DNA from: an uncultured Bacteroidota bacterium
Lineage (GTDB): Bacteria; Bacteroidota; Bacteroidia; Chitinophagales; Chitinophagaceae
Reading direction: 5' to 3'
Assembly: GCA_903875055.1 (NCBI GenBank)
Contig: CAIQUX010000259.1
Coordinates: forward strand, 1-42,095
DNA: 42,095 bases
A model generated the notes under the pieces. The model saw only the letters and a list, made by a program, of their open reading frames with translations. It did no database searches and was not told where the DNA came from. This document shows, piece after piece, positions 22,550-42,095 of this stretch (positions within the stretch are counted from its first letter, which is position 1; the number at the start of each line of letters is the position of its first letter). Made by a program: the position numbers and the translations under genes.

Positions 22550-25354
22550 TTAAGAATTCAAAATTGGTAATCGTACTTCAAAAAATTGGTCCGTCTTATA
22601 AATTTCAACATCTTGCCGGCTGAAAAGTTTAAACCGGTTTCTGATATTCTGGAGACCGATATTCTCTCCTTCTTCCTTATGGTTCTTCTCATTCAGATTA
22701 TTCAATATGACCAGCCGATTCATTTTGATACTGATCGATATCATCAAAGGCTTTACTGTGGATATAACATTATGCTTGATTGCATTTTCTGCCAAAAGTT
22801 GCAATGTCAGTGGAGGAATCATTAAATCTGTTATTTGACTTGCTGAACATTCATTATGAAGATGCAGGGAATCTCCAAATCTCATTTTTTGAAGGTACAC
22901 ATATTTATCCAGCAAAACAAACTCTTCTTCAAGAGTAACCAAGTTTAACTTGGTGTATGAGAGCAGAGAACGATAATAATCACTGAGCATCTGGGCATAT
23001 TCGATCGCTTTTTCCTGATCCTCGTCAATGACCTGTATCAGCGTGTTGAAACTATTGAATAGAAAATGAGGATTTACCTGATGTTTTAATGTTTCAAATT
23101 CAGCGATTGCCTTTTCTTTCTCCAGTTGTTGCACCTTGCTGACTCGTGATTCACGGAATCTGATATAGTAATAAATGATCACTGTGATTACCGAAAAAGA
23201 GAAAAAGACGAACCAATTTTGCTTCCAGAACGGGTTTCTGATGAAGAAGGAATAGCGCTCTTCAGTCGCATTCAGGAAACGGGGGTTGTTGGCCGATTGC
23301 AAAATAAATTCATATCGCCCTGGATTCAGTCTTGGGAATACTACCTCTTTGTCCACTGTCGTATTCCATTGTTCATTTAACCCCTTCAACTTATATTGAT
23401 AATAGGTCATCTGTTCTGTATTATAATTCGACGAGATCAGGAATTTGAAGTAATTCTCTTCATAATTGAATGTATTCTTGTCCTTCACGATATACTTACC
23501 CATTACCAGAATCTCATCAATTTGAGCCTGCGGAATGAAATGCGTCTTGTAACTTGGAAAATATAATTTCAGTATTCCCAGATTGGTACCGATATAGATG
23601 TTCGCATACTGATCGGCCGAAATGGAGTTGGTTTCTGGGATATCGGCCATATGAAGGGATTCAAAATTCAGGCTTGAGACCGTAAAATGCTCAATATCGA
23701 TCAGGTCTATCCCGACCGATGAAACTGCAATCAAATATTTTTTCTGGTAACTTCGAAGGCAAAGAATTTCATTAGACGAAAGCCCGTTGTTTTTAGTCAG
23801 ATGAACGACCGAATCACTGCCGTAACAGTAAAGACCATCAGAATAAGCATTAAACCACATCCGTCCATCGTAATCTTCATCAATACTGTAGAAAAGATTG
23901 GGACGTCTTTTCTGGTCAAGCACAATATCAGCTACTTTTCCATCTGAAATTCTTAAAATCCCTTGTCCGTCAGTAGCCAGCCATAAAGTCCCCTTGCTGT
24001 CCTTTTTAACATCATAGACATAGTATTTTTTTCTATGATATTCATCCTCAAGAGAACGGAATTTGTAGTTACCTGATGTGTTTTCACTATACCATACACC
24101 ATTGAGGCTCGATACCCATATATTATTCTGATCACCGGTTATTGTCAATATATCGGAAGTCTCAACAGAACTATCAATCTGAATTTTACGAAAGGAAAGA
24201 TTTGTCGTATCCACCTGATAAAGACCTTTACCAGAGGTACCTGCCCATATCCTGCCATGCACATCAATAAAAATCGATGTGATATCGATGAGGTCTGCAG
24301 GTGATGTTAAATTCGTTTTTTGTATCCTTTTGGTTGAATAATTGAACTTAATGAGTCCCTGGTCCGGGGTAAGGTAGATGGTATGCCCGCTATCAACAAA
24401 TATTGAATGCACATTGGCAAGCGGGAAACCACTCAGAGTTCTGATGGCAGTTATCTGTTCACCTACAGAAGAAACCAGCAGCCTGTTACCGCAAAGCCAA
24501 ACAGTTGCTTCTTTATCGACCTCAATCTTTTTGACAGGCTCATTGTTAACGGTGGTCTCAACAAGATTTCCTTTCATATCAAGAAAGTAAGCCCCATTTT
24601 CTGTAGCGACAATAATCATATGGTCGAGAATTCTGAGATCATTGATCTGTGAAGAGTTCCAAATATCATGATCAAACAAAGTAACAGTTGAATCAGACAG
24701 GTTTATCTTACATACATCCCCTCCCTGGGTTCCACAGTAAAGGAAAGAATCAGCTAAAGCAAAGCAGGTCACTAACCGGTCAGGGATGCGACGATTCATA
24801 TAGCAGGCATTGATTGAGTCAAGTGATATCTGCATATTGACCCCTAAATCCGTTGAGGACCAGATTGTATTATTTGAATCAATAAAGGTCTTGTAGACGA
24901 AATTATCTGTCAATCCATTGTTAGTTGTATAATGCATGATTGAGTAAGGCGATATGACAGCGTACCCGTTACCCTTCGATGAAATAGAAAGTAAATTGCT
25001 GCGCACACATATATCAGATATCTCCGCTTTCATATCACCTACTAGTTTCAGTGTTTTCAGATTCGTGTTATAGATGAACAATTTCCCTTCTGCCGTACCC
25101 AACAAGACAAGTTCATGCGAGGCAAGGATAGCTGTGATATTAAGACTAACAGGTAAAGGCACTCTGACAGATTCGGTATTTTTCCACTTAAATAACCCAC
25201 TCTCGCTACCTAACCATAGGACATTATTGGCATCAACGTACATCGTATTGTAACGGAGTTTATCCTCCCTTAGTTTACCTGCCCCGAACACAGGCAAGCT
25301 AAGACCAGCGTAGAGCAACAGAAAAAGAAGAATATATTTTAATTGTAACCTCAT
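22550..25354 (-). CDS. LytS-type sensor histidine kinase with Reg_prop beta-propeller sensor and Y_Y_Y domain
   Basis: Repeated Reg_prop-like blades (IWAGTSGKGLYQVD, LWLATDGQGILRISDG, MWFNAYSDGLYCYG), YQYKLKGLNEQWNTT...NPGRYEFILQSAN, TM, then LKHQVNPHFLFNSFNTLIQVI. Confidence 0.93.
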   Translation of the reverse strand: MRLQLKYILLFLLLYAGLSLPVFGAGKLREDKLRYNTMYVDANNVLWLGSESGLFKWKNTESVRVPLPVSLNITAILASHELVLLGTAEGKLFIYNTNLKTLKLVGDMKAEISDICVRSNLLSISSKGNGYAVISPYSIMHYTTNNGLTDNFVYKTFIDSNNTIWSSTDLGVNMQISLDSINACYMNRRIPDRLVTCFALADSFLYCGTQGGDVCKINLSDSTVTLFDHDIWNSSQINDLRILDHMIIVATENGAYFLDMKGNLVETTVNNEPVKKIEVDKEATVWLCGNRLLVSSVGEQITAIRTLSGFPLANVHSIFVDSGHTIYLTPDQGLIKFNYSTKRIQKTNLTSPADLIDITSIFIDVHGRIWAGTSGKGLYQVDTTNLSFRKIQIDSSVETSDILTITGDQNNIWVSSLNGVWYSENTSGNYKFRSLEDEYHRKKYYVYDVKKDSKGTLWLATDGQGILRISDGKVADIVLDQKRRPNLFYSIDEDYDGRMWFNAYSDGLYCYGSDSVVHLTKNNGLSSNEILCLRSYQKKYLIAVSSVGIDLIDIEHFTVSSLNFESLHMADIPETNSISADQYANIYIGTNLGILKLYFPSYKTHFIPQAQIDEILVMGKYIVKDKNTFNYEENYFKFLISSNYNTEQMTYYQYKLKGLNEQWNTTVDKEVVFPRLNPGRYEFILQSANNPRFLNATEERYSFFIRNPFWKQNWFVFFSFSVITVIIYYYIRFRESRVSKVQQLEKEKAIAEFETLKHQVNPHFLFNSFNTLIQVIDEDQEKAIEYAQMLSDYYRSLLSYTKLNLVTLEEEFVLLDKYVYLQKMRFGDSLHLHNECSASQITDLMIPPLTLQLLAENAIKHNVISTVKPLMISISIKMNRLVILNNLNEKNHKEEGENIGLQNIRNRFKLFSRQDVEIYKTDQFFEVRLPILNS

Positions 25355-38602: not shown

Positions 38603-41600
38603 TTATGGATGTGCGCAAAAAACAAAATTGCTGATATTAGTTTCCAGTACCGGTGTATCCAGTAAATCAACATTACCGTCTCCATTGAGATCAGTTGGAT
38701 AATACCCAAAACTAAAATTTCCAATAGCTGTCTCCAAAAACGGCGTATCCAACAAATCGATATTCTGATCAACATTCAAATCGCCTGAATAGATCGCCCA
38801 TGCACCATTGCTAAGTTGCACCTGATTGGCTCCATAAGCCTGAGAATTGGAGGTACTGAAATTGTAACTAACCGGTGATGTACTCATTATTACCGGCACT
38901 GCTGACCAAGTCTCCAAGGCATTACGATGTTTCAACACAATATAATATGAACCAGTAATAAATGGGAAAGTACAGGTAGCTATTCCATTCGTATTCATGA
39001 TAGTTTTTGTCGAATAACTGACAGCATATGGCGCAACTGAATTGTGCAACTCAACCATCATTGAGTCACATGCACCCGGAACAGAAGCTATACCCTGATT
39101 AGCAAGAACTGGCAGCATGGCTCCGGTACCATCCCAATAACCTTGTATAAAGCAGGTCAGATTAAGTATCGTATTCACAGGACAAACATCGGTTGTCTTG
39201 ATGCTAGTGGTGACAGAACCTGTGATCGTATTATATCCTTCCGAGACAACATAATAAGTGCCAGCCGCTAAGGTCGTTGAAATAGAAGCCGACAGACCCG
39301 TGCAAAGTGGTCCGTTATCATCATCAAACGCAATTTGTGATCCGGTGCTGTTTAATAGATGCATATAGGTATCCCATCCTGAACCGCAATGACTGATCTG
39401 CACTGTGGCAGAAGAAGCCAAGCTAAACCGATACCAAACATCAGGTGAAGGCTGATTATTGGCGCCTGTGTAACTATTGCTGAAACAATTTTGCAACGTA
39501 TTGGTTTGTGTATTCACAAACGGAGATGTTGAGCAAGGGACTTGTCCGACCTCAATCGGATTGGCCATAGTAGCTCCGGGAACTGTTGAACAAATCTGTA
39601 AGGTTGTGAATGTAAAAGGACCTGTCCAACTGCTAAGTCCGCTACCCGACGAGGTGCAGTTGGCGGCCACCCAATATTCGTACGTAGTATTCGGTGTGAG
39701 GCCATTCACCACCAAGGGATTACTTACATTCGGATTTGACCCGACTCCTGTCGGTGCTCCTCCTCCCGGTGTAGTAATATGAACATTCCAAAGTGTTTCA
39801 ATACATCCTGCTGTCCAACCCAATGTCGCACCCGTAGAAGTCAAGGCAGTGGCTGTCTGTGCCGAAGGTTGAGAACATCCGACTGATGGCAGTATGGTAA
39901 TCGTATAATCTTCGGTTTCACCATAATTATTCTGATAAATACATGGATCAATACCAGGCCCCGCTACATTATACATACAACGCACCCTAAGTCTGTGTAA
40001 CCCTAGGCTTGCATTACAGGAAATAGCAACAGGAATGATAGCCGACGAACCGAGCACACCTACCGTACCGCTTCCAGTAACAACGGCGGTTGTATTACCA
40101 ATGGCTTCAGTGGTAGAAAAAATACCGTCATTATTATAATCGATCCAGGCTTTATATCCCTCACCATATTGACCGGCAAAAACGGTCAGGCTATAAGTAG
40201 ATCCCGCATGCAATGAAGTCGTGAGTAAAGGATTGGTGCTATAACTGTAATCCGAATAACCCAACAAGCCGCCAGCACATCCGGTGCCTGAATTATTATC
40301 CAGTGTATTTAGTTTCACACGGGCGATCACATCACCATCGAGACATCCTGAATTGGAGGTGGTTCCATACACCGGTACGCAATAGCAAACTACTGTACCC
40401 ACACTCATCGTGATGGCATTCGATGTTGCTGAAGTAGAAGCCAAACAAGCCAGATTTGAAACCATATTGCAGGTAACGATTTGTCCGTTTGTAAGATTTG
40501 AAGAAGTAAACGTCGGGCTGTTAGTGCCTGCAATAACACCATCTATTTTCCATTGATATACAGGTGCCGAACCAGGATTGCTTGGCGTAGCTGTGAAAGT
40601 GACATTGACACCCGGACAAGACGGATTGGTACCTGTTGTGATCGCAATCGAAACAGCAGGGACACTATTGGCCGGAATGACGTTCACGACTATAGGACTT
40701 GAGGAAGTAATAGCACTTCCGCAATCTGTTGACACGCTATAGGCGCCGGATGTATGTACGACAATGGATTGTGTGGTGGCTCCGGTTGACCACAAATAAT
40801 TGGCAGCAATGTTTGCTGAAAGGATGACACTGTCGCCCTGGCAAAATGTGGTTGTTCCGCTTGGTGTGATGACCGGAGAGGCATTTTGCTGTGTCAAGGT
40901 AATCGGTACCGCTACCCAGTTATTCGTTTCATCACTTTCAAGGAAATTGTCATTAGGATCGGTAATCGAAACGATGTAATACGTTCCGTTGCATACATTC
41001 ACTAAAGGTATTGGATCATTTAATCCGATACTGTACACGTCATAGTTTCCTGAATAGATCCCTTGTGTCAATCCGCATCCGGTATGAAATCCAAGATTCT
41101 GATTGGGAATATTCGTGATCGTATTGCCATTCATATCTTTACATTGTCCTACATTACCCGGACAGGTTCCGAGGTTGATCAGACAAAAACTTTGCTTGGC
41201 TCCCATACCAATGACAGGCCAAGTAGTAGCATCAGGATTGGAAGTAGCCGCACGCAATGTATAGTTCGCAAAATTATCGACATGAAGATGTCCATGAGCC
41301 GGATGATAAGTCATGACACCTGCAAAACGATCATAAAAACTTAAGGTATCCGTGCCTGGTACTTTTTGATAAATACGCTGCTTGATCACATGATGTAGTT
41401 GTTCTCCTGAAGGGCAAGTCGTGGTACAAGGCACATGGGTGGTGCCGCAAAAACATGAGTCGATACCAAAAATTTCCATCGGGCCATAACCGATATTCGG
41501 AGTTGCATTCGATATATATAAAGCACCAGGCACTTCGTTGTGATTCAATAAGATTTCTTTGGCAGAGGAAATCATATCAGGTAACAAATCACAACCGGCG

Positions 41601-42095
41601 GCTCCACCCGGACAAACACAAGTTGGACAAACATAGGTGCCTGTCGGAATCACGCTGGTGCTGCTTCCATTATATTGCGGGGGATTATTGGTGAATTCGA
41701 TACTCGCATTATGAACAGAACCTGTATCTCCTGCCGCCACATCCTGCACAATCAGATACCAGGTACCGTTAGGGTTCATGCCATTATTTAAAAGACTTGT
41801 ATGCTCGAAGGGCTGAAACAATCCATTATAAGGGGCTGTCGTATTGCTGAATAATGTACCGTCTACACCGACACAGGTGCCACTGAAATTATCGCCACCT
41901 CCACCAATACCCTGAATGAGCGTGACCGAATCACCGTTAGGAGCCACAATACGAATCACCAAATCTCCATCGTAGGTATGTGTGATTGTGGTACAGATAT
42001 GCGCCAATCCGAAGGTGGTATCGATTGAATTCGGCAAACCGCTGACAACAATCGGTATTGAATCTCTATGAAAATCAAGAATAGTAGCGTTTCCA
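38603..42095 (-). CDS. large secreted multidomain protein (partial at window edge): P-domain, lysyl-oxidase-like/CARDB, Ig-like, GEVED, FN3, C-terminal duplicated calcium-binding dockerin-like module
   Basis: Frame stays open from 42037 to the edge (GNATILDFHRDSIPIVVSG). P-domain: ITHTYDGDLVIRIVAPNGDSVTLI...GTWYLIVQDVAAGDTGSVHNASIEF. LOX-like: MTYHPAHGHLHVDNFANYTLR...GAKQSFCLINLGTC. GEVED: GYKAWIDYNNDGIFSTTEAI...NNYGETEDYTITI. FN3-like and a dockerin-like tail. Confidence 0.9.
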   Translation of the reverse strand, partial: GNATILDFHRDSIPIVVSGLPNSIDTTFGLAHICTTITHTYDGDLVIRIVAPNGDSVTLIQGIGGGGDNFSGTCVGVDGTLFSNTTAPYNGLFQPFEHTSLLNNGMNPNGTWYLIVQDVAAGDTGSVHNASIEFTNNPPQYNGSSTSVIPTGTYVCPTCVCPGGAAGCDLLPDMISSAKEILLNHNEVPGALYISNATPNIGYGPMEIFGIDSCFCGTTHVPCTTTCPSGEQLHHVIKQRIYQKVPGTDTLSFYDRFAGVMTYHPAHGHLHVDNFANYTLRAATSNPDATTWPVIGMGAKQSFCLINLGTCPGNVGQCKDMNGNTITNIPNQNLGFHTGCGLTQGIYSGNYDVYSIGLNDPIPLVNVCNGTYYIVSITDPNDNFLESDETNNWVAVPITLTQQNASPVITPSGTTTFCQGDSVILSANIAANYLWSTGATTQSIVVHTSGAYSVSTDCGSAITSSSPIVVNVIPANSVPAVSIAITTGTNPSCPGVNVTFTATPSNPGSAPVYQWKIDGVIAGTNSPTFTSSNLTNGQIVTCNMVSNLACLASTSATSNAITMSVGTVVCYCVPVYGTTSNSGCLDGDVIARVKLNTLDNNSGTGCAGGLLGYSDYSYSTNPLLTTSLHAGSTYSLTVFAGQYGEGYKAWIDYNNDGIFSTTEAIGNTTAVVTGSGTVGVLGSSAIIPVAISCNASLGLHRLRVRCMYNVAGPGIDPCIYQNNYGETEDYTITILPSVGCSQPSAQTATALTSTGATLGWTAGCIETLWNVHITTPGGGAPTGVGSNPNVSNPLVVNGLTPNTTYEYWVAANCTSSGSGLSSWTGPFTFTTLQICSTVPGATMANPIEVGQVPCSTSPFVNTQTNTLQNCFSNSYTGANNQPSPDVWYRFSLASSATVQISHCGSGWDTYMHLLNSTGSQIAFDDDNGPLCTGLSASISTTLAAGTYYVVSEGYNTITGSVTTSIKTTDVCPVNTILNLTCFIQGYWDGTGAMLPVLANQGIASVPGACDSMMVELHNSVAPYAVSYSTKTIMNTNGIATCTFPFITGSYYIVLKHRNALETWSAVPVIMSTSPVSYNFSTSNSQAYGANQVQLSNGAWAIYSGDLNVDQNIDLLDTPFLETAIGNFSFGYYPTDLNGDGNVDLLDTPVLETNISNFVFCAHP

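Follow-up and report, generated by a model that had tools for sequence, protein, structure and literature searches.

The gene at one end of this contig raises the question of whether a genuine lysyl oxidase (LOX) has been built into a secreted bacterial protein and, if so, what it would do there. In animals, LOX is the copper enzyme responsible for cross-linking collagen. Its incorporation into secreted proteins, and the gene that frequently neighbors it, are little explored. The bacterial family also allows LOX chemistry to be viewed outside collagen. The window, by which we mean the whole stretch of DNA analyzed, is the entire contig C259 (42,095 bases). A preliminary description of it, made from the sequence alone, had placed a LOX-like domain inside a giant secreted protein. 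Reading of the ORFs and their translations gave a single ORF on the minus strand with 1163 aa visible, open at the contig end. As the window is the whole contig, the missing N terminus reflects the edge of the assembly. In the closest relatives (L002 and L023), only a hydrophobic, signal-peptide-like start lies upstream of the P-domain, which gives ~1190 aa for the full window protein. The visible part probably lacks only a signal peptide, the contig end being the cause, and the protein is long rather than giant. The P-domain and GEVED modules named in the description were both recovered above their Pfam cut-offs; its fibronectin type III (FN3) module fell just short (Table 1).

Table 1. Features of the LOX gene and its product in window coordinates; residue numbers are those of the visible protein
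Feature	Position	Strand	Evidence or remark
Multi-domain LOX protein, secreted	38603..42094	minus	ORF; 5' end cut by contig end
Proprotein convertase P-domain (PF01483), residues 35-133	41696..41992	minus	32.8 bits, cut-off 21
Lysyl oxidase domain, residues 168-403 (236 aa)	40886..41593	minus	Pfam, family profile, predicted fold
Copper motif H264-P-A-H267-G-H269-L-H271 (domain H97, H100, H102, H104)	41282..41305	minus	Each H in 93/94 sequences
Predicted LTQ lysine K300 (domain K133)	41195..41197	minus	K in 93/94
Predicted LTQ tyrosine Y354 (domain Y187), within D-x-Y	41033..41035	minus	Y in 93/94
Peptide TYHPAHGHLH	41311-41282	minus	
Peptide GAKQSFC	41203-41183	minus	
Peptide GNYDVYS	41050-41030	minus	
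Peptide ESDETNN	40939-40919	minus	
GEVED domain (PF20009), residues 647-733	39896..40156	minus	56.3 bits, cut-off 24.4
Fibronectin type III-like domain (fn3), residues 741-818	39641..39874	minus	24.6 bits, just below cut-off 25
Pre-peptidase C-terminal-like domain (PPC), residues 887-949	39248..39436	minus	21.9 bits, below cut-off 25.9
187-aa C-terminal module, two dockerin-like calcium-loop repeats	38606..39166	minus	32 places in own genome

The region in question, previously put at ~40900-41600, encodes a genuine LOX domain (40886-41593), with a similarity far beyond chance. Against the whole protein, the Pfam Lysyl_oxidase model (PF01186) scored 16.2 bits, under its cut-off of 20.4; against the domain alone, it scored 20.5 bits (E = 4e-4), just reaching the curated cut-off. 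A phmmer search of the PDB with the window protein returned no LOX match, and a search of the window's own genome for PF01186 at E ≤ 0.001 returned none either. We searched 60 related genomes together with that of the window, and 15 of the 61 contained a match to the 236-aa domain; every one of the 17 sequences aligned from these matches hit PF01186, the best at E = 1.4e-12. When the profile of this family was run against the PDB, human LOXL2 (5ZE3) was found at E = 8.5e-8, with the next match at E = 0.1. Full-length relatives carried PF01186 at E ≤ 0.01 in 48 of 50 cases. Single-sequence and whole-protein searches were too weak to establish LOX membership, which the profile of relatives settled.

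Fold prediction agreed. The model of the domain, predicted from a 72-row alignment, had a mean pLDDT of 93.1, and its only significant Foldseek matches in the PDB were the two LOXL2 chains of 5ZE3 (E = 4.5e-6 and 6.4e-6, probability 1.00). Superposition on LOXL2 was loose (TM 0.45, rmsd 12), with 16-17% identity in the fold alignment; in our own reading, this looseness is possibly due in part to 5ZE3 being a precursor state. The fold match supports homology, while active-site geometry lies beyond it. A chance or convergent likeness of short motifs, toward which the score of the whole protein and the empty phmmer and own-genome searches might point, is contradicted by the LOXL2 match of the profile, the PF01186 matches of the relatives, and the Foldseek result, and is extremely improbable. 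The C-terminal half of the domain also resembles the CARDB adhesion fold: PF07705 was matched by 12 of the 17 members, and a weak match of the model to PDB entry 3idu points the same way.

We then examined the catalytic residues. In the HMMER alignment to LOXL2, MTYHPTHGHLH falls on WIWHDCHRHYH, GAK-xxFCL on GHKASFCL, and G-x-x-D-x-Y on GCWDMY, so that the copper histidines and the lysine and tyrosine of the predicted lysine tyrosylquinone (LTQ) cofactor line up with those of LOXL2. The copper HxHxH (H267, H269, and H271 in the window protein) and the two LTQ residues that the preliminary description had picked out by eye were thus confirmed. To place them in a wider family, 85,462 species genomes were scanned with a 7-row alignment, giving 101 relatives, of which 80 were kept. 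Domain positions H97, H100, H102, H104, K133, and Y187 were each conserved in 93 of 94 distinct sequences, and they persist among relatives down to ~37% identity. The 80 loci were gathered with two peptide patterns, one of which includes the first two histidines and so somewhat favors their count; K133 and Y187 lie outside both patterns and are hence unselected. The sole exception was L012 (L012:1501-2211), in which the four histidines are replaced by D, a gap, K, and I, the lysine by H, and the tyrosine by K. Its genome, G056, retains a second, intact LOX copy (L018). The joint loss of histidines, lysine, and tyrosine fits the expectation that they form one site.

These observations bear on whether the LOX fold might have been retained as a non-catalytic, copper-binding or adhesive module. 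The CARDB-like half (12 of 17 members; 3idu weakly by fold) and the existence of a paralogue, L012, clearly devoid of an active site would both suit such a role. However, all six catalytic positions are held across the family even in distant members, and where the site was lost, the whole of it went, so we consider a non-catalytic domain very unlikely.

A LOX enzyme in Bacteroidetes is itself already known, having been reported in 2015 by Grau-Bove et al. (PMC4448552), in keeping with the earlier statement that LOX homologs occur in some prokaryotes. Their prokaryotic proteins and ours share a LOX domain with catalytic residues in bacteria of the same phylum. In that survey, bacterial LOX lacked the first histidine of the motif, and all but three prokaryotic LOX had simple architectures. 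In contrast, the first histidine (window 41303-41305) is present in all but one of our sequences, and the family consists mostly of long multi-domain proteins. With animal LOX, represented by PF01186 and LOXL2 (5ZE3), the window family shares HxHxH plus a fourth histidine upstream, GxK-xxFCL, D-x-Y, GxY, and an ExDxxNN end. The FCL and YxC cysteines of LOXL2 are also shared, whereas two LOXL2 cysteines near the tyrosine have no counterpart. No SRCR domains were seen in the window protein, which instead carries the P-domain, GEVED, FN3-like, and C-terminal modules.

The distribution of the family was then considered. All 80 kept relatives have Bacteroidota titles, and nearly all are metagenome-assembled; in an even draw from the class, 45 of 247 genomes carried the LOX domain. 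By Pfam, 12 of 50 full-length relatives have a P-domain. The family splits in a quick tree, where all 19 members of the window clade carry the P-domain and two long-branch P-domain members, L018 and L019, fall outside it. A type IX secretion (T9SS) type A sorting tail (TIGR04183/PF18962) terminates 36 of the 50 full-length relatives, and visual inspection of relatives, L002, L004, and L005 among them, showed hydrophobic N termini, the start of the window gene being cut off by the contig end. These starts and tails support the secretion proposed in the preliminary description. The window's own genome encodes 119 T9SS type A tails. Judged by such signals, the LOX family is probably exported via type IX systems, and its members resemble T9SS type A cargo in their tails, signal-peptide-like starts, and long extracellular modules. 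The window protein differs from such cargo in ending with a dockerin-like module, and it had no match to the type A sorting domain (TIGR04183/PF18962). What is newly added to the known family is the N-terminal P-domain of the window clade, secretion by the probable T9SS route, and, as described below, the pairing with a propeller gene. Together, the occurrence of the family and its likely secretion route provide a concrete set of proteins in which to test the role of prokaryotic LOX.

The dockerin-like module is a recurrent element of this genome (G000), where the 187-aa unit was found at 31 places besides the window copy. Of 20 copies fetched, 18 terminate their protein exactly at HP, one continues past, and one ends in QPN; the end is usually NFIFSNHP or a near variant. 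When the window copy was compared against Pfam and NCBIfam, no family reached its cut-off, T9SS sorting models included, and scanning of the copies gave weak Dockerin_1 matches with no other convincing name. Its close form was absent from 59 other genomes of the class searched at 1e-25. Type A tails predominate among the LOX relatives; of those lacking one, some have a tail that by eye resembles the 187-aa module. As some relatives without a type A tail end in this way, the pattern suggests that the module is a candidate alternative sorting or anchoring signal.

What the enzyme would do can be set out stepwise. We infer that the domain binds copper, forms its cofactor, and acts as an amine oxidase: K300 and Y354 would be converted to LTQ, and primary amines, either lysine side chains or small amines, would be oxidized to aldehydes with release of ammonia and hydrogen peroxide. 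The gene product is, in our view, very probably a secreted, copper-dependent lysyl oxidase that is probably held at the surface. It is most likely a cell-surface amine oxidase producing allysines or peroxide. Where the P-domain, GEVED, and FN3 modules hold matrix proteins or adhesins, these might then become cross-linked through the aldehydes; this step, which depends on the substrate, is the most speculative, and the preliminary description was right to mark function as an inference. An enzyme of this kind could also find use as a small tool for introducing aldehydes into proteins. In the literature, we found no activity data on any Bacteroidota LOX, and nothing on bacterial LOX biology or a T9SS link beyond PMC4448552 and PMC6452851.

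The latter paper describes HTU-LOX from the archaeon Haloterrigena turkmenica, a distant relative among prokaryotes and an active amine oxidase, with copper as a stimulant and BAPN as an inhibitor (PMC6452851). By its description, HTU-LOX is likewise a prokaryotic LOX with the same catalytic residues; a feature of its own is an N-terminal portion that, once removed, leaves a more active enzyme (PMC6452851). Its specificity is relaxed, extending to taurine, glycine, and other small amines, and its authors propose that it contributes modestly to the supply of nitrogen (PMC6452851). As HTU-LOX is so broad in the amines it accepts, scavenging of nitrogen from amines, or local production of hydrogen peroxide, is a real rival for the role of an active enzyme here. 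Such a role would leave the enzyme chemistry the same and compete with the cross-linking step only. In favor of this rival, we recognized no matrix substrate beside the LOX gene, the recurrent neighbors being a propeller gene and, at a few loci, a thioredoxin-like protein. Against this, LOX is embedded in long proteins that also carry sorting tails and modules of the adhesion type, an arrangement better suited to a fixed surface position than to free scavenging. We regard scavenging or peroxide production as a serious possibility, though one that falls short of probable.

Clustering of neighboring genes identified a secreted single beta-propeller gene (Reg_prop) of ~410 aa that adjoins LOX in 27 of the 80 loci (L040, L064, L075, L092, and 23 more; genomes include G001, G013, G050, and G057). 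The propeller is PorZ-like yet scores far below the PorZ cut-off, and it mostly carries a T9SS tail. It shares the strand of LOX in every one of the 27 loci and lies within 650 bases of it in 26, on either side. True partners scored 386-515 bits, with the next gene at 99. The 247 genomes, drawn regardless of LOX, were then screened at E ≤ 1e-60. The propeller was present in 26, of which 23 also had LOX (Fisher p = 5e-17, a value that overstates independence as the genomes are related), and the two genes lay within 3 kb on one strand in 17 of the 247. That the linkage is conserved while the order of the two genes varies points to a functional connection between LOX and the propeller, and the conserved partner of one clade adds a further handle on the role of prokaryotic LOX.

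It is in the sister clade of the window's P-domain clade that LOX genes frequently have this partner. No propeller partner was present at any of the 10 P-domain loci with room to see one, and a search of the window's genome at E ≤ 1e-20 gave no match. Two other candidates were set aside: a propeller histidine kinase in the window (22550-25354), which had entered the propeller cluster through weak similarity (69.8 bits, compared with 386-515), and a gene at L094, PorZ-like by eye, with 90 bits. As to the nature of the tie, we tentatively suggest that LOX and the PorZ-like propeller might form a conserved two-gene surface system, with the propeller presenting the substrate or holding the enzyme, and that in the window clade the P-domain might replace the propeller. 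If true, matrix cross-linking by LOX would have a bacterial counterpart in the LOX-propeller system.

Finally, a gene for a thioredoxin-like protein of the AhpC-TSA/TlpA type (~400 aa) was seen directly upstream of LOX at L044, L051, L064, L069, and L077; at L057, a thioredoxin-like gene lies 7.7 kb from LOX.
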